This document shows positions 8,717 to 18,436 of a stretch of DNA of 64,000 bases, piece by piece. The stretch is from Cryptococcus deneoformans JEC21 (taxonomy: Eukaryota > Basidiomycota > Tremellomycetes > Tremellales > Cryptococcaceae), in assembly GCF_000091045.1 (NCBI RefSeq), contig NC_006691.1, positions 781,301-845,300 on the forward strand, in the 5' to 3' direction. The notes below the pieces were generated by a model, which had not been told where the DNA came from, made no database searches, and saw nothing but the letters and a program-made list of their open reading frames with translations. Positions within the stretch are counted from its first letter, which is position 1. Every line of letters starts with the position of its first letter. Both the position numbers and the translations under genes were made by a program.

Positions 8717-9597
<881 letters not shown>

Positions 9598-10742
9598 TCA
9601 GAAAATCATTTGTTTAATGACCTCACTTATATACATTTCCCTTCCCTGACTGTTATGCCATGACTATCGCCTTCTTCCATTATACACACGTTTTTGAACA
9701 CGTTGGCTCCCGATGTCGTTATCGTGCATCTGTATGAGACATCTTGTATAACTGTGGATTGCACGAATCGTCGAGATGGTGCGAAGCATCACGCATTTCC
9801 ACTTGTCCCCTCGTTCGATACCACATTAGCGCCAGAGCAGTCGTTATGGTCAATTTTTCCTCCCGCCCCACCCCATAATTCTTAGGGGTCTCTCATCACT
9901 TCTGCCATTAACAAACATCGACGCTGGTGTGGCCTACTTGGCGAATCATTTCAGTAACAGACTGCAATTCGTTGTTTTTCCTTTCTACAATCAGTTTGGT
10001 CCCCCGTTTACAGTCAACGCAAGCCTACTAGCGTTTTTGGGTAACAACCGGCATGGATGGATGGAGAATCATACGACCAGCAGCAGAGCAGCTAGTTGTC
10101 AACCATTGTATGATCAATAGCAAACCATCTCATTAAGGTATGGGACTTCCATCTCTTCAAAAGGTGGCCCCATCAACTGTCATATTACAACCAAGGATTT
10201 CAGTAAATTTTGTCCTTCGATTCAATGTCTGTACAGTAGTGAAGCTTGCAAAACTGAAGGTTATTTAACTAGGGAGCTGACAAAATGACTGAAGGCCTCG
10301 AGCTGCAGCAACAACGTGCATTGGTCCTGTATACATCATTAAATAATCTCCTGCTACAGCTTTCTTCGAAAGCGGCACATGCTACAAGCTACAAGTCTTT
10401 CGGTTCATGAAAGCATTACGATGTGCATGATGAATTATAATGTGGAAAGCAACAACATCGATCGACCGAGACGGAGCAACGAGCATTATACGTAATTAGT
10501 AGCTAATTGTTTCTTGTAAGTTAGACTCGATAGAATTCTTTATCAAGTCGTTATCTCGTCGATTTTCTATTGATTTCTCACTTGATTCTTTGATTCCAAA
10601 AATTTTCCAGCCCTTAGTGACCAAAATGCAGGAGCGATTGCAATGCTTCCTATGCTTTGTAATGCAATCCAGAGATGCATAAAGTTTGCATATATTTGTG
10701 CTGCGTTGCAGATAAGTCTTCCTAAACTGAACCACGATCATT
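9598..10742. other. Intergenic region (convergent 3' ends), about 1.1 kb
   Basis: This lies between the 3' ends of UBC4 and the leftward GNA1 unit. Only short ORFs are present (for example 9694-9885 and 9929-10120), with no conserved motif and no codon pattern I would call coding. It is longer than expected for two abutting 3' UTRs. Confidence 0.35.
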
Positions 10743-12276
10743 CTATTTACTTGATGTTTCAGTAGTCGAATCTGATGAGGCAACACGTGAAGGAAATGGG
10801 GTTCTAGAGCGACCTTCCTTCGAGTCATCTGCTGCTTCGCTGTCTTTACTTTTCGCAACTCCCACTCCTTCTAAGATTGAAAATGCCGGTAAGGTACTTT
10901 CCGTCTTGTCTGAAGCGCGCCGGTCGCTGACATGTGAGGTGTTGCCACCCAAACCCTCCGCCGCCCAAGCAGGTAAGACACTCTCGTCGACAGCTGTCGG
11001 AAAGTCATACGTTACGCCCATACCCGCTTCCGATGACGCACTTGTGAACGTTCGCGGAGACCCTGGTGATTCCCCATCCGAAGCAGCGGTGCCATCTGGG
11101 ATGGTGAGCAGGATTCCTTTCTGGTCATCTGAAGTAACGTCTGACTGGGATAAAGGGTCATGAAGGCTCTGGTTCATTTGAGGGGTAATGTTCAATTCAG
11201 TTCCTGGAGTCAGAGTTCCCATAGTTGAGACGGGAGGTGCAAGAGAGTCATTGGGCGCATACGGCAACAAAGACTGCTGGTTCGACTGCGTAGAGAAGGA
11301 GACATGGGCTGTCCCTTGATCGCTCGGAGTATAATACGCCTAAGTTGTCTTTAGGAGGGGTTTTATAGATATAAGCCAAGATTGACTTACCATCCCTGCA
11401 CTCCGTTTATGAAAACCACAATTTTCATAAAACGCTATATTCAAAAGAATAAGTTCCGCAAATGAAAGGGGAGTCAAAAACTCACGAATTTTAGCTTCTT
11501 TGCAGTCCAGAACGACCTTGTAACATCCAAGGGAGACAGCCAAGTCCCTTAATCCAGTCACCAATTTCACCCCCAGTTTCTTCCCGCGCATTTCTTCAGC
11601 CACGACGATGTCCTCCAGATGTCCTGCAGCGCTTCCACCATTGATATGCTTCCGTTCAACAAGGAGCGTACCGGAAGCAACTAGGCGGTCAATTTTGGTG
11701 TCTACCATGACAACTGTGTAGTACGTTAGGGGACAAGATTTGAAATGTGTAAAAATCGCCTGGTAGAGCGAAGGGGCTAGAGCAGGCGACGGGCGAAGAT
11801 TGGAAAGAAGCTCGAAATGCTGCCGCAAGAGATCAGTAGACGCAAGAGGGCGGACCTATCGAATATATTCAGTGACGATACCTTTGTCGAGGTGCTAAGA
11901 GATAACCTACCTCGATATCTTTGGGGAGGTTTTCTCTCATACTTGAGGGCAATAATTTTGCATCGAATAGCAGGTCCAGGTCTTTGTTCGATGGGAAATC
12001 CTCCAGCAAAGTCTGGACAGTTTCTGTATCCTGTAGCGTATTCGGTCGATAATCATCAGTCTCATCAGTAGCCCGCTGATCTTTGTCACTGATCTGGGCG
12101 GAATGATCAACGAGCCTTTGCGGTGTTGTCTCCTGTTGCAAAATTTTGATCTTGGTATGAGAACTACCAGGCTGAGGGTCATCAATGACAGAAACCTCGG
12201 CGTTGACGCCACTAGAGAATGCCAAGCTAGAAGGCAATATATGTGAGGTTTTCGGAGACCCAATTCCACCGAAGAG
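10743..12276 (-). CDS. GNA1: Glucosamine-6-phosphate N-acetyltransferase (GNAT), with long C-terminal tail
   Basis: GNA1 acetylates glucosamine-6-phosphate with acetyl-CoA on the way to UDP-GlcNAc, needed for chitin, N-glycans and GPI anchors. The spliced sequence reads LFDAKLLPSSMRENLPKDIE, VRPLASTDLLRQHFELL, YYTVVMVDTKIDRLVASGTL, GHLEDIVVAEEMRGKKLGVK (acetyl-CoA motif A), LRDLAVSLGCYKVVLDCKEA and PFYENCGFHKRSAGMAYY, which is the family order. Two unusual points. First, the usual end (AGMAYY) is followed in frame by about 200 residues rich in Ser, Thr, Asp and Glu, to a stop at 10743. Second, the 5' side has no in-frame ATG between 12276 and 11940; instead its exon joins in phase, through a 65-nt intron (12341-12277), to the last RhoGAP exon. 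If GNA1 is made separately, the ATG at 11940 is the only plausible start and would remove the segment LFDAKLLP. Confidence 0.88.
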
Positions 12277-12305
12277 CTTACCGCACAGCGATCAGCGATA
12301 GTTCG

Positions 12306-15127
12306 TTAAGATACGTTTCTTCCGATTTGCATCCAACTCACCAGATTCGAAAACGTAATCAAATCCTCTAATACGGTATCCTTTTCATTTCCAATGAGCT
12401 GTTTTCTAAACGAATTGTCAAGTGGTACCCACTGCTTCTTGATTCATCATCAGAACATTACCATCACTTGGAGCCTGCTCCTGCCCAAAAAGGACGGAAC
12501 CTATGCAGCATTACTACTTTTTTTCTTTCTTTCTAGACAGTTGAAAATTAACATACTAAAAAGCACCGCAAGATTCTGTGGCGTACAATAGTTGAGCAGT
12601 TTCCTATAACAGCTAATGACTAGACGTACTTTTGCGCCCATTTTATTCATTCCACGCTTTTCATGGACTCTTCCTAAGTGTTCGATAATGGATTGGAACG
12701 TTGTCTGATGAATAGGAGGGAGTCGTCGGAGGCGGCCTCTAATGGCACTGAAGTTATTACTGATATGCAACTCTGAAAATCACTCGTCAACTGTGATTGA
12801 ACGGCAAGTTCAATTAGTCGGGCATACCTCGATGCTTGCTATACTTCACCCTCTCGGCGTGTGGCAAATTGAAAACTGGTTCAGGCAACTCCCTGAGGTC
12901 TTTCAACCCTTCATCAGTACATCTACATTGACACACCGGGGTTACCTTACATTGCTTCAAGACGCTCGCGATGCTAAAAACGTCGTCCTTTTCCCCGAAC
13001 TCAAATTGTGTCTCGTCCTTCTCTATGTCTTGGACCATTTTTTGAACTCCTGTGTGCCTGCCATTGACTCGGTAAATACCTTCTGCTTCCAAACCACGCG
13101 CATCGATTGCCGCGATACACTTTTCAACAATCATTGGCGGCGATCCATGGTCGTTCCCATCACCTCGAGCAAAATCGTAATCGGTAAGACTGACTCCAAA
13201 GATAAGAGATCTGCAAGGTCCAACCTTGAATATAGTCAGAACAGCTCATTTAGGCCAACAAAATATACCTACATAGAAGTTCTCGTACGGTACCGGGGCT
13301 TTAGTGGTATTGCTGGTTGCCACAAGTAACCTTTTACGGAAAAGCATCACTTTTTGAAGTCAGCTCGGAATCCACGGCGCAGCCGATTACTACAAGACCA
13401 GCACGCACTATCGTGATCGGCATCAATAGTATCAATAGCTATTCGAGCTACTTCAGTAGCCTGCGCGCTAGTCATTGCAGTACTGTGCATAATGTCCACA
13501 TACGCCACCATGGCCCGGCGAAGTTTATTGCTCAGTTCATCATTGAACTCCTCAAGATGAGTTATTGCGGAGCTATGAAGTTTCTCTGTTCTGAGTCGGA
13601 GTGACTCAAGGTGAAAGATGCCCATGCGGTATGCTCTGTCTGTTGACGCTCGCTGCTGTCAACAGGTCTTTTCCGGCAGTACAATGCAGAAATGAGGCAG
13701 TCACTCACCAGCCTCATCGGCCTCTCGCTTTGCCTTCGCGCCCCGAACTGCCATTTGGGCTTTGATGTTAGCACTTCCTGTGGTGCCTCTCCTTTGAAGT
13801 CCTTCGCCTTCCACTCCATGAGAAGTTATTTGTACATCATCTTTCTCCCGTTCCCTATCTTTGTCACCCCCGAGCCTTTGCATAAAAGCAGAGAAGCCCT
13901 TTTTCCCATGTGTTGCAATATCATTCAGCACATCTCGTGACTTGTTCTCCAGCCCTGAACCTGACTCAGCTCGGAGTCTGTTGCCGAATTTCATTTCCTT
14001 CTCACGGTCTTTGTTTGGTGATGGCACGAACATACCAGAAGTGGTTTCCTGTGACGATACTTTCGAAACTGATGAAGCGGCTGGGTTGTTCACAGGGGGA
14101 AGGGGTGAAATGATTGTAGATGGCAAGGCATATGAGGCGCCTGTGCCGACAGAGAAAGGGTGCTCCTGCAGGGGTGTAGAAGTAGGCGAAGGTGGAGGGG
14201 CGCTAGATAACAGACGTGCCTGCGTGGCTATGGCATTCTCTTGCCGCCTGTGGTCTTCCAAGACTTGAGATTTTTGAAAATAAGCCTTTTTTAGCTTTGG
14301 GAGCTGATGCTTCGCATGATCTTCATACATCTAACGAAAACGATGAATTATATGTCTGAATATAAATATCTGACTTACATGCTCAGCAAGCTTGATGTTC
14401 TGTTTCAGATAATTTCTTATTTTTAGTTGCAGATCCTGGAGTGAGCCACCTCGTGAGCATGAGACATTCCAGTGTCAACAAATAGGCTGACTTTGAGCTT
14501 GGTTAATTCCTTGATAACATCTTCTTCCAGAGCTCCTTTCATGGCTTCCCGCGCCTGAATTTCGCGCAATGTATAATCTCGAACTTCACTCCAAGCTTTT
14601 CGTGATGTAGGCTTTTCTGATCTCTTAGGCGGTGGGTCTCTGCAATTTATCATGGTCAAAAGGTAAGGTCAAAAGGTAACATAACCTCCCGACTCAGAAA
14701 CTGAACTAACTCGTCGTGTAATGAGTCGATAGCCACTGTTCGATCGTATAACCTTTGAAGGCCTTCAATGTAGTCATTCTCAAGGCGTACACTAGCTCTG
14801 AGGTTCAATGGGCTTTCGGTTAGCATATAAACATCAACTCACCGTTCCTGCAAGAAATTTATGTAAATCTCATCCTCAGAAATCTTGCGCTAATGAACGA
14901 AGCAGATTACCATCAGTATTTTTATCCCTGGAACCGTTTCTGGATATAATGGCACAAGGAATAGAGCCAGTAGCAGAATGAGTAGATCATGTACATACCT
15001 TGAACTCGCTAAAAACATCTGTGAGAGTATCCGAGTTCTTTCGAGAGGGGTCTTTGGACGGTCTGATTTCCAGCGAGGCAGATGACGCTTCCGGCAGAGG
15101 ATCGACTGACGGATAAGCGTAAGCCAT
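12306..15127 (-). CDS. F-BAR and RhoGAP domain protein (RGD1-like), apparently fused to GNA1
   Basis: The gene starts at 15127 (MAYAYPSVDPLPE). Exons give an F-BAR/FCH region (YINFLQERASVRLENDYIEG, DSLHDELVQFL, REIQAREAMKG, DLQLKIRNYLKQNIKLAEH, MYEDHAKHQLPKLKKAYF), a Ser/Pro linker, more helix (GIFHLESLRLRTEKLHSSAI), and a complete RhoGAP domain: FGVSLTDYDF, the arginine finger EAEGIYRVNG, YLRELPEPVF, HISNNFSAIRGRLRRLPP, NKMGAKNLAVLF and DTVLEDLITFSNL. F-BAR domains bind and curve membranes; RhoGAP domains switch off Rho-type GTPases, as yeast Rgd1 does for Rho3/Rho4. If the last intron is retained, translation stops at 12306; if it is spliced, the frame runs on into GNA1. A Mutator-like element is inserted 131 bp upstream of the start codon. 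Domain calls are firm; the joint donor near 13287 and the 3' end are the weaker points. Confidence 0.87.
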
Positions 15128-15520: not shown

Positions 15521-18436
15521 TCATTCCCAGCTATGTCGATCTCTCCCTCGCTGCATTATAATACTATCCTCCTGCGATCGAATGCTCGCATCCTTGCCCA
15601 CATTATTCTCTAAGTTGTATTGGTAAATTTGAGGAGATTGGAGATTATTGTATCCACTAACAGAAGGGTAATGATAGGGAGTTGGGGCTTCGGAATGATT
15701 GTGGAATAATACTTGGTTGTAAGGGATATACTGGGTAGGAGGCACATGGTATTTTGAAGTTGGGTAATGCTGTGGAGCAGGGGGATAGTATTGTGATAAT
15801 GGTGGATAGAATTGGGAAGAAGGGGGTAATTGGGGGACCGAGGGTTCAGGAGGAAGATGCTGCATTTGAACAGCATGTGACGGATATATTTGAGAGGGGG
15901 CAGGATATTGTGACCGAGAATGCTTTTTTGGACGAAGATTGGGCTATAAAATATGTAAGCGCAAGGTCATCGAGTTGGGCTAATCTTTGAATGAAAGGAC
16001 CAACTTCATTCGGTACCTCGACAAGATCTTCCTCATTTCCTTCCTCATCATCGCTATCTGGGACAAGAACTCTTCTGTCTTCACCTGCATTCTCAGCTTC
16101 TTGGTTTTTGTCGACCCTTCGAGACGCTTGAACACGCGCACAGTCTTTGGTATAGTGAGTGGAACTTTGGCAGTGTTTACAGCGCCCTTTTTTTCGCTGG
16201 GTCAATCCAGCCCCCATAATTCTTTCTGACTGAGTCAAGTACCTTCCTGAAGGTGCCGACATCCGGTCTTCCTGCAACACTGGTGGATTAGGGGCCTTCC
16301 TTCCCCGCTTGGTGCTTAAAATGGGTGGATCGAGGATAAGTTCTTGGTCCTCACCGAAGTCAAATACATCATCCAGCCGTATGACTGATGTATCTGGGGT
16401 GCCAACAAGTCTGTTAATATGGTCAAGGTATCTTTTGAGACTTGCGGCAGACCCGAGACGCCAGTGAGGATGAATGTGATCCTTTTCAAGGTGTCTTCTT
16501 TCCCGGACGAAGCTAATGAGACGATGGGCGCAGGGCAATCCATGGGATTTTGTAAACGAGCCACTGCACGGGTGTGATTCTTCAAAGTCATCGACACCTT
16601 CATCGTAATCACCCAAATATCTTTTGGCCAAAGTCAACTGCTCAGCAAGAAGCTTCATTGCAGCGCGGGATATGGAGCCTTTTAACTAAACAATTATATC
16701 AGCACGATTACAAAAAGGACAGAAAGAAGGAAGGAACATACCCGAACAAAAGTACTGGGAATATGTGTAGCACACCTCGTTCTCTCGAGCTCAATTCTTT
16801 TCAAAATTTTCAACCACTGCTGATCAAAATACGTACTTAGAGACCCAATGACAAGCAGAAGATCACCGTACTTGGTGTCAATTGATTTCTTAAGAGTTGC
16901 GTGCTGACCTTCTAAGCGTGAATTACCGGTTTGTCCGAAGTGAAGTTGCTTGTTGATATAGGCATGTACAAAGCGCTCCTTGATTTCATCCAAACCCCGG
17001 ATATACGAGATCGCTCGAGCATATTTCTGACCAGGATAAAGTTCTTCCATCTTCCGATAACCTTCCTCAAGCTGCTCATCCGATTTTGCATGTACACAAT
17101 ACCGTACCCAAGCTTTGCAGAAATTCGAGACAGCCATGACGATGTTCTCTTCGTCAACGAAACAGGGCCTTATATTGCTTTTGACATTTTCTTGAAGATG
17201 CCAGAAGCAGGAGAAGCGGTAAGCCTTGGGGAGGACAGACATGAGAGCGTTGATGAGTGCTGGGTCACGATCGGTAATGACAACCTTGACATCCGGTTTG
17301 CCGACAAGTTCGAAGAACGAATTGAGAGCTTGGGTATACCAGTTTGTGGTTTCACGCAACATCAAGATGACTCCTGCAGTGTATGTCATACCTGTCGATG
17401 TGGATCCGACGATATGGAGCATGGGCATCCGGTACAGGTTCGTCTTGTATGTGCAGTCGAAGAAAAGGACTTCGGGAAATCGGTGAATCAGTGCGCGAGC
17501 AGTTCGCTTGGTGTAAACCAAACCAATGAGTTCATCGCGTGTGTTGACAAACGGACGATGGAGCTCATCATTGCTCACTAATTGCCGAATACAAGCAGCA
17601 CTTGCACTGGAGCCAGCACGGAGATCTGCACGACGACGAAAGGCGAGACGATGCAAGTCTTCCGATGTCAACATTACCGTTGGGAAACGCTGAGACATGG
17701 TACTGATGATGGAGGGGAATGGAGTCCGGCTGTCGATCAACGTGTTGATCAGCTCTTTGGCTTCAGGCGTCCGCGAAGCACGCCGAAGAAGTGCAATTCC
17801 AATATTGGCGACAGGCGGATGATTGTGCGAGGCATTCACGACCTTCCAAGTCCAACATTTGTCTCCACCATGCTCTTTTACCTCTGCCTCTGCCATCTCC
17901 CAAGCCACAGCAGCAAAAGGGCATCCATTTTTTACGGTCTGTATAGTCCTAATGCGCACATCTTTGAAACTGTCCCCTCGTGTGCAGCGATACTCGTCTC
18001 CAAAGATGCACGAGTATTGTATCAATTCTCTGCCCTCTTTGTGAGTTTTCGTTGGCTTCTTCCTTTTGCTCCGCCTAATAACAGCAGCGAAGCCTTGTGA
18101 GGCTGCGTAAGCCTGGACAGCGCCTTTACACTCATCTTTAGATTGGTAGTACGCTTGCTCGTCGAACCCAGGGGTAGAGATCATCTCGTCGTCGTTGAAG
18201 GAGTCAATGGGAGCCTGGATAATGTCATCCTCACTATCCTCTTCGTCGGCAATATTGGAGACTTCCGATGAATCCGAACCTTCCATGGCATGGAGATTAC
18301 CTTCATCAAAATCAAACGCCATTGATTGATGTCCCGAGTATATTTCGGCCTCTGGGACGCGGATAATAGGAGAAGGTGGGCAGATACCGGGTTGGGGAGA
18401 AAGAGGATCCGAAGAGTGCAAATCAGTCGAAGCCAT
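15521..18436 (-). CDS. MULE transposase with FAR1-type N-terminus, SWIM-like finger and zinc knuckle
   Basis: Exon 1 (18436 to about 16740) encodes an acidic N-terminus, then a FAR1/WRKY-GCM1-type DNA-binding region (about residues 97-205: FDEQAYYQSKDECKGAV, basic RRSKRKKPTK, ending HNHPP). The MULE catalytic core follows, with FFDCTYKTN (first Asp about residue 327), VVITDRDPALI (Asp about 389) and CFWHLQENV. A GTATGT intron leads to exon 2 with LTLAKRYLGDY, a SWIM-like zinc motif (HPCSGSFTKSHGLPCAH, where the usual CxC is C-S-G) and a perfect CCHC zinc knuckle (CKHCQSSTHYTKDC). A possible 55-nt intron near 15911-15857 with a weak GTCACA donor joins a Pro/Tyr/Gln-rich tail ending at 15521. 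The protein should cut and rejoin the element's ends. The frame is open throughout, without stops or frameshifts apart from introns. Confidence 0.9.

Follow-up and report, generated by a model that had tools for sequence, protein, structure and literature searches.

A predicted fusion of an F-BAR RhoGAP with glucosamine-6-phosphate N-acetyltransferase in Cryptococcus and related fungi

We analysed a stretch of 64,000 nucleotides (nt) of the Cryptococcus deneoformans JEC21 genome (contig NC_006691.1, chromosome 6, called C6 here, positions 781301–845300; the window) and identified a minus-strand gene (15127–10743 of the window) that joins two known protein families in one reading frame. The predicted product of 1127 residues consists, in this order, of an F-BAR domain, a RhoGAP domain, a disordered linker, a glucosamine-6-phosphate N-acetyltransferase (GNA1) and a disordered tail. 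It is highly probable that this predicted gene gives a single polypeptide. We also regard it as likely that one gene and one polypeptide combine an Rgd1/Rga7-like F-BAR RhoGAP with a captured GNA1 duplicate at its C-terminus, which would be placed at the cortex as a second isoenzyme or a sensor. The basis is the joined frame, its conservation, a single origin, the paralogy with a stand-alone enzyme, the retained active-site residues and the presence of RhoGAP and GNA1 folds in one structure model.

The gene model was obtained by inspecting the minus strand from 15600 to 10400, splicing it from the sequence and adjusting it by comparison with P0002, a deposited protein of C. neoformans Tu401-1. 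It has 18 exons and 17 introns, all GT-AG and 48–109 nt in length. The last exon before the junction (12380–12342) terminates in ...DTVLEDLITFSNL and is followed by GTGAGT. The junction intron (12341–12277) is 65 nt long and in phase 0, with CTTAAC at 12310–12305 and the acceptor GGTAAG. The next exon (12276–11911), which starts with LFGGIGSPKTSH..., has 122 open codons and is joined in phase 0 to the GNAT exon. Its frame survived in 33 of 20000 base shuffles, which keep composition only. Between 12276 and 11941 no ATG is in frame, and the first one lies at 11940. The initial annotation had proposed both this junction and the lack of an in-frame ATG ahead of 11940; the spliced model reproduces the former exactly and agrees with the latter. 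P0002 crosses the same junction (...ITFSNLLFG...) and is 92% identical to the JEC21 protein across the GNA1 region used in the search described below.

The same architecture is found in deposited proteins of related fungi. A search for long proteins (0.55–1.75 times the length of the query, E ≤ 0.001, 1328 candidates) was scored on the GNA1 region, which corresponds to query residues 765–945 in the numbering of a preliminary 1135-residue model. All 23 matches carry both the RhoGAP (PF00620) and the acetyltransferase (PF00583) domain. A second search with the RhoGAP region of a Kwoniella protein (E ≤ 1e-10, 1705 candidates) gave 137 matches, and the best 120 of these were examined. Both domains are present in 33 of them. 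RhoGAP without acetyltransferase was seen in six tremellomycete-like proteins (P0146–P0149, P0154 and, on a contig of 4,246 bases, P0155) and in 81 other relatives (P0161–P0241), of which the named ones are agaricomycetes and dacrymycetes. The named fused genera are Cryptococcus, Kwoniella, Tremella, Naematelia, Kockovaella, Vanrija, Cutaneotrichosporon and Cryptotrichosporon, together with two Tremellales isolates. Kwoniella belongs to the Tremellales and Cutaneotrichosporon to the Trichosporonales; we take the other genera to fall into one or the other of these orders.

The 33 relatives and JEC21 make up a set of 34 fused proteins. No methionine is present between RhoGAP and GNA1 in 15 of the 34, and where linker methionines exist, their positions are scattered (alignment of 30 of the 34). 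The column corresponding to ATG 11940 holds Met in 18 proteins, Leu in 14, Val in one and Ile in one. The open spliced frame, the 33 joined relatives in two orders and the methionine-free linkers bear out the one-frame fusion that had been proposed at the outset, and the placement of F-BAR, RhoGAP and GNA1 in one predicted reading frame is supported.

The N-terminal part of the protein is an Rgd1/Rga7-like F-BAR RhoGAP, for which membrane binding and GTPase-activating (GAP) activity are predicted from the sequence. The F-BAR family PF00611 scored 26.5 bits in P0002, just below the cut-off of 27.8, and 28.8 bits in P0003 of Kwoniella. Profile comparison matched the F-BAR chains 7aam and 6ikn with E values of about 1e-6. 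The predicted structure of P0002, modeled as a monomer, contains RhoGAP and GNA1 folds and long helices, with a disordered linker and tail. PF00620 scored 122 bits in P0002; R516 and K554 are invariant in an alignment of 30 RhoGAP sequences, and the arginine finger is present. F-BAR (by sequence evidence) and a RhoGAP with its arginine finger are thus features shared with the Rgd1/Rga7-like proteins. We know of no acetyltransferase in Rgd1 of Saccharomyces cerevisiae or Rga7 of Schizosaccharomyces pombe. The unfused basidiomycete F-BAR RhoGAPs (the 81 proteins P0161–P0241, among the matches listed) likewise differ from the fusion in being without an acetyltransferase. Four of these, from Mycena (P0211, P0216, P0221 and P0230), are named Glucosamine 6-phosphate N-acetyltransferase and have no acetyltransferase Pfam domain; the name was probably carried over from a fused Cryptococcus protein.

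The nearest relative of the fused GNAT fold is GNA1. Active-site positions are given in CeGNA1 numbering, and the roles of the catalytic and sugar-binding residues follow the available portion of PMC3413214. E104, D105 and C141 are present in all 34 fused rows, K136 and Y149 in 33, and M161 in 32. P0151 has Arg at position 136, and all other misses are due to gaps in two odd gene models, P0150 and P0024. The phosphate-contacting Arg164 of CeGNA1 is replaced by Tyr in 30 of the 34 rows. GNA1 of Aspergillus fumigatus also has Tyr here, and hence this change was not counted as defining. The histidine of the dimer pocket of A. fumigatus Gna1, as described in the available part of PMC7324522, aligns with H102, which at least 90 percent of the sequences retain in the fused and the stand-alone set alike. 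Between JEC21 and P0002, identity is 96 percent in RhoGAP, 94 percent in GNA1, 74 percent in the linker and 76 percent in the tail; with three other Cryptococcus proteins it is 66–79, 72–74 and 28–33 percent for RhoGAP, GNA1 and the linker, respectively. By these identities, GNA1 and RhoGAP are under similar constraint, and the linker and tail diverge more freely. We consider that the fused GNA1 is probably a live enzyme.

A search of the JEC21 genome (19,051,922 bases, 14 contigs) revealed a second complete GNA1. It is on the minus strand with its start codon at C6:960897, and 164 kb separate it from the start of the fusion gene. The product of 186 residues carries the active-site residues and is letter-for-letter identical to P0025, which is CNF03220. 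With this intact gene on the same chromosome, the idea that the fused domain is the sole GNA1 of the genome was rejected. Solved GNA1 chains measure 149–190 residues, whereas the fused GNA1 is the C-terminal domain of an 1127-residue protein and a second copy besides CNF03220.

The origin of the fusion was traced in two trees. The GNA1 tree has 77 rows: 34 are fused domains, 28 are stand-alone enzymes of tremellomycetes or tremellomycete-like sources, and 15 are agaricomycete enzymes chosen among the best 120 of 781 matches. The 34 fused domains form one clade (support 100/99), which joins 27 stand-alone tremellomycete rows in a larger clade (100/94) with Mrakia (Cystofilobasidiales) outside. 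The stem of the fused clade has a length of 0.88 vs 0.067 for the stand-alone group. The RhoGAP tree has 56 rows and covers basidiomycete F-BAR RhoGAPs only, with 17 of the 81 unfused rows as outgroup. Here, the unfused P0154 falls outside a clade of all fused and Cryptococcus gattii rows (100/99), and four proteins of the C. gattii complex that lack the GNAT part are nested within the fused clade, beside C. neoformans. These four protein clusters (P0146–P0149) end in ...RNLDPIF, five residues into the GNA1 part, which suggests that the enzyme was lost secondarily. Three of them are still named glucosamine 6-phosphate N-acetyltransferase. The two trees agree and give one predicted origin of the fusion and a single loss, in the C. 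gattii complex.

By eye, the beginning of the linker is similar to the tail of P0154. This 794-residue F-BAR RhoGAP sits on a contig of 2507 bases, which is little for a gene with many introns, and the contig may represent a transcript. In the fused GNA1 part, two of three introns match those of the stand-alone gene in position and phase, and therefore the copy was made from DNA and not from RNA. The fused and stand-alone genes are still linked in JEC21. In seven Kwoniella and one Cryptococcus, the two locus tags differ by 37–59 (for example, IAT38_003687/003650 and CI109_105593/105534). Both genes lie on equally long contigs in Tremella, Naematelia, Kockovaella, Vanrija albida and Cryptotrichosporon. 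From these tags and contig sizes we infer linkage in these relatives as well. In two Cutaneotrichosporon species, the contigs of the two genes are of different size. We also considered whether the FTPD motif of the fused GNA1 is a lost MTPD start codon; this was rejected, as P0052 of Coprinopsis has MTKFTPD, and FTPD thus looks older.

The ortholog in C. neoformans H99 appears to have been studied already. In the available portion of PMC11651612, CNAG_05696 is a ubiquitin-conjugating enzyme (E2-16 kDa) and CNAG_05688 is subunit F of the V-ATPase. In JEC21, their counterparts at C6 790.4 and 816.5 kb flank the fusion gene at 792.0–796.4 kb, and the sole V-ATPase F locus found is C6:816365–816754. 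Because both neighbors match the H99 gene order, the fusion gene would be the ortholog of CNAG_05695, if gene order, the one criterion used, is shared. CNAG_05695 was deleted in H99 and published as 'Gnat1', and the deletion is viable, according to the part of PMC5595294 available. The deletion was read there as acetyltransferase loss and used against a hexosamine role in glucosamine-induced filamentation. Within that portion, the gene is treated as a hexosamine enzyme, and neither a second GNA1 nor a RhoGAP is mentioned; the term 'GNA1' has no match in the main text, and the legend of panel S3C, as shown, names gnd1 instead. By our model, deletion of CNAG_05695 also removes the F-BAR RhoGAP and should leave the stand-alone GNA1, and for these reasons it is probably no test of GNA1 loss. 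The viability of the H99 deletion fits a non-essential isoenzyme.

We propose the following history and mode of action. A copy of GNA1, with its introns, would have landed behind a RhoGAP gene in the ancestor of Tremellales and Trichosporonales. The stop of RhoGAP and the start of GNA1 would have disappeared, and the RhoGAP tail would have turned into part of the flexible linker, with the stand-alone GNA1 remaining on the same chromosome. In the present protein, an F-BAR dimer would position the molecule at curved cortical membrane (bud neck, septum or growth site), where RhoGAP would inactivate a Rho GTPase. Tethered by approximately 100 residues, a catalytically competent GNA1 dimer would make N-acetylglucosamine 6-phosphate there as a second isoenzyme. 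Alternatively, the tethered GNA1 would report the status of acetyl-CoA and glucosamine 6-phosphate at this site. Local supply would be the simpler reading, with sensing as a serious rival. The transcript, the location, the activity and any coupling are what we infer here from the gene and its relatives.

It is plausible that hexosamine metabolism is coupled to Rho signalling; that a real coupling exists, of either kind (local work or sensing), we put forward tentatively and at less than even odds. The initial annotation had tied chitin precursor supply to polarity. This is not established: CNF03220 is intact, and the H99 ortholog can be deleted in the accessible account of PMC5595294. Because the stand-alone paralog exists, the fused domain need not be chitin supply. 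A metabolite-gated Rho switch, in which acetyl-CoA and glucosamine 6-phosphate, by their occupancy or turnover in the tethered GNA1 dimer, adjust the position of the protein at the cortex or its GAP activity, seems unlikely. If it were true, hexosamine status would directly control Rho-driven wall building in Tremellales and Trichosporonales, and the C. gattii complex would be a natural sensor loss.

Three other explanations were weighed. In the one already raised by the initial annotation, there are two adjacent genes, with a GNA1 that is leaderless or internally started (at ATG 11940 or a non-AUG codon) and was merged with its neighbor by gene prediction. A start at ATG 11940 would yield a 346-residue product beginning MRENLPKDIEVRPL. 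Yeast Gna1 has a similar starting point, as it lacks the segment preceding the matching position. The corresponding column is Met in 18 of the 34 fused proteins, and the C. gattii proteins stop just upstream of this site. However, 16 of the 34 have Leu, Val or Ile in the same column, which lies within the conserved N-terminal segment, and a separate stand-alone GNA1 is present elsewhere in the genome. The linker frame remains open though its sequence drifts. H99 gene models have in general been refined by strand-specific RNA-seq and poly(A) data (PMC3990503, available portion), and in the part of PMC6687208 available CNAG_05695 is placed under regulation of cellular process, as expected of a signal-transduction RhoGAP, though not under regulation of Rho signalling. 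Given the 33 joined relatives, the methionine-free linkers, the scattered methionines and the constraint on GNA1, two genes are much the weaker account and very improbable.

The fusion could also be real with its GNA1 moiety a decaying passenger whose acetyltransferase is not needed. The absence of the GNA1 part from the C. gattii polypeptides, the stand-alone GNA1 and the viable H99 deletion (PMC5595294, in the portion available) would fit. A decaying domain is at odds with catalytic and sugar-binding residues retained in 33–34 of 34 rows across two orders, and with a constraint similar to that of RhoGAP in both comparisons given above (94 vs 96 percent; 72–74 vs 66–79 percent); we hold this explanation to be improbable. 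In the last explanation, which overlaps with our own, the GNA1 domain has turned sensor or uses another acceptor (e.g. a protein amine) and regulates the RhoGAP. The redundant stand-alone enzyme would free the fused copy for such a role, and the long fused stem (0.88 vs 0.067) and 11 consistent sequence differences from the stand-alone enzymes point the same way. The residues that bind glucosamine 6-phosphate are nevertheless kept in the fused domains, no allosteric path is indicated, and the linker is predicted to be disordered. We consider a dedicated sensor or regulator of this kind unlikely.

Several observations weigh against the preferred account, a captured and still working GNA1 on an F-BAR RhoGAP. 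At 11 positions, the fused and stand-alone GNA1s differ consistently. One of these is N145, which is present in all 28 stand-alone and all 15 agaric GNA1s and is K, R or M in the 34 fused ones; it lies four residues ahead of the conserved Tyr149, and CeGNA1 itself has Leu there. Given these differences, the activity of the fused GNA1 may have shifted. The GNA1 part is dispensable in the C. gattii complex, where four clusters end at its start. No F-BAR chain was among the 50 fold matches listed for the P0002 model. In the GNA1 tree, the 27 stand-alone rows form a clade of their own with weak support (95/60), and long branches were flagged at P0071 of Mrakia and at P0048; the exact date of the duplication is uncertain for these reasons. 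The fusion is seen here in gene models, those of the relatives being for the most part gene predictions, which may wrongly merge neighbors; an identical wrong join in all 33 relatives is unlikely. Since N-acetylglucosamine 6-phosphate needs two further enzymes to reach uridine diphosphate N-acetylglucosamine (UDP-GlcNAc), a role in local supply is weakened and sensing has to be taken seriously.

The initial annotation knew of no described protein with this domain order. No publication describing the fusion was found in the open-access literature (titles and openings of abstracts among the matches listed; supplements were not searched), and to this extent the statement stands. Such proteins have, however, been deposited, several of them named glucosamine-phosphate N-acetyltransferase, and the H99 gene was published as Gnat1. 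Where deposited fused proteins are named for function, they mostly carry the name of one domain. The fusion combines two known families in a new architecture and is no new kind of system; it is old and conserved. One chain would unite a Rho regulator with a module that shapes membranes and with a UDP-GlcNAc pathway enzyme, and two fungal orders have retained it alongside the stand-alone enzyme. Separation of the domains makes a hexosamine–Rho signalling link directly testable. The reading of the published CNAG_05695 mutant changes, and the conclusion on filamentation needs separated alleles. For GNA1 as an antifungal target in Cryptococcus, two GNA1 domains have to be counted.

The features of the fusion gene and its neighbor are listed in Table 1.

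Table 1. Features of the fusion gene and a neighboring gene (positions in the window)
Feature	Position	Strand	Basis
Fusion gene, F-BAR + RhoGAP + linker + GNA1 + Ser-rich tail	10743..15127	-	Splice model; comparison with P0002
N-terminus and F-BAR part 1 (helices), approximate boundaries	14181..15127	-	PF00611 scores; helices in P0002 model; profile match to 7aam/6ikn
F-BAR part 2 (helices after disordered Ser-rich insert), approximate boundaries	13273..13730	-	Structure model; profile positions 268-448 match 7aam
RhoGAP domain, EGIYR arginine-finger motif	12268..13224	-	
Junction intron, 65 nt, phase 0	12277..12341	-	Spliced product agrees with P0002
Linker without Met	11980..12267	-	Disorder predicted in P0002; first third like tail of unfused RhoGAP P0154
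GNA1 domain (glucosamine-6-phosphate N-acetyltransferase fold) including N-terminal LDLLFDAKLLP segment	11331..11979	-	
First in-frame ATG past RhoGAP, within conserved GNA1 N-terminal segment	11938..11940	-	Frame reading; column comparison in 34 fused proteins
Ser/Thr-rich C-terminal tail	10743..11330	-	Disorder predicted in P0002
Neighboring ubiquitin-conjugating enzyme, UBC4/5 type by eye	8717..9598	+	End coordinate by eye

A LIM-domain match was found at C6:773809–773892 in an open frame of 2127 residues, approximately 20 kb from the fusion gene. It would fit CNAG_05703, called the Lrg1 RhoGAP in the available portion of PMC11651612; the RhoGAP search of the JEC21 genome gave no match at this frame. 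Directly upstream of the fusion gene and near its promoter lie two minus-strand open reading frames of 580 and 270 residues (window 15846–18436). A Pfam scan of the 270-residue part (frame 15849–16685) returned no family. Both frames resemble what we take to be a MULE-type transposase with a SWIM-like zinc region.

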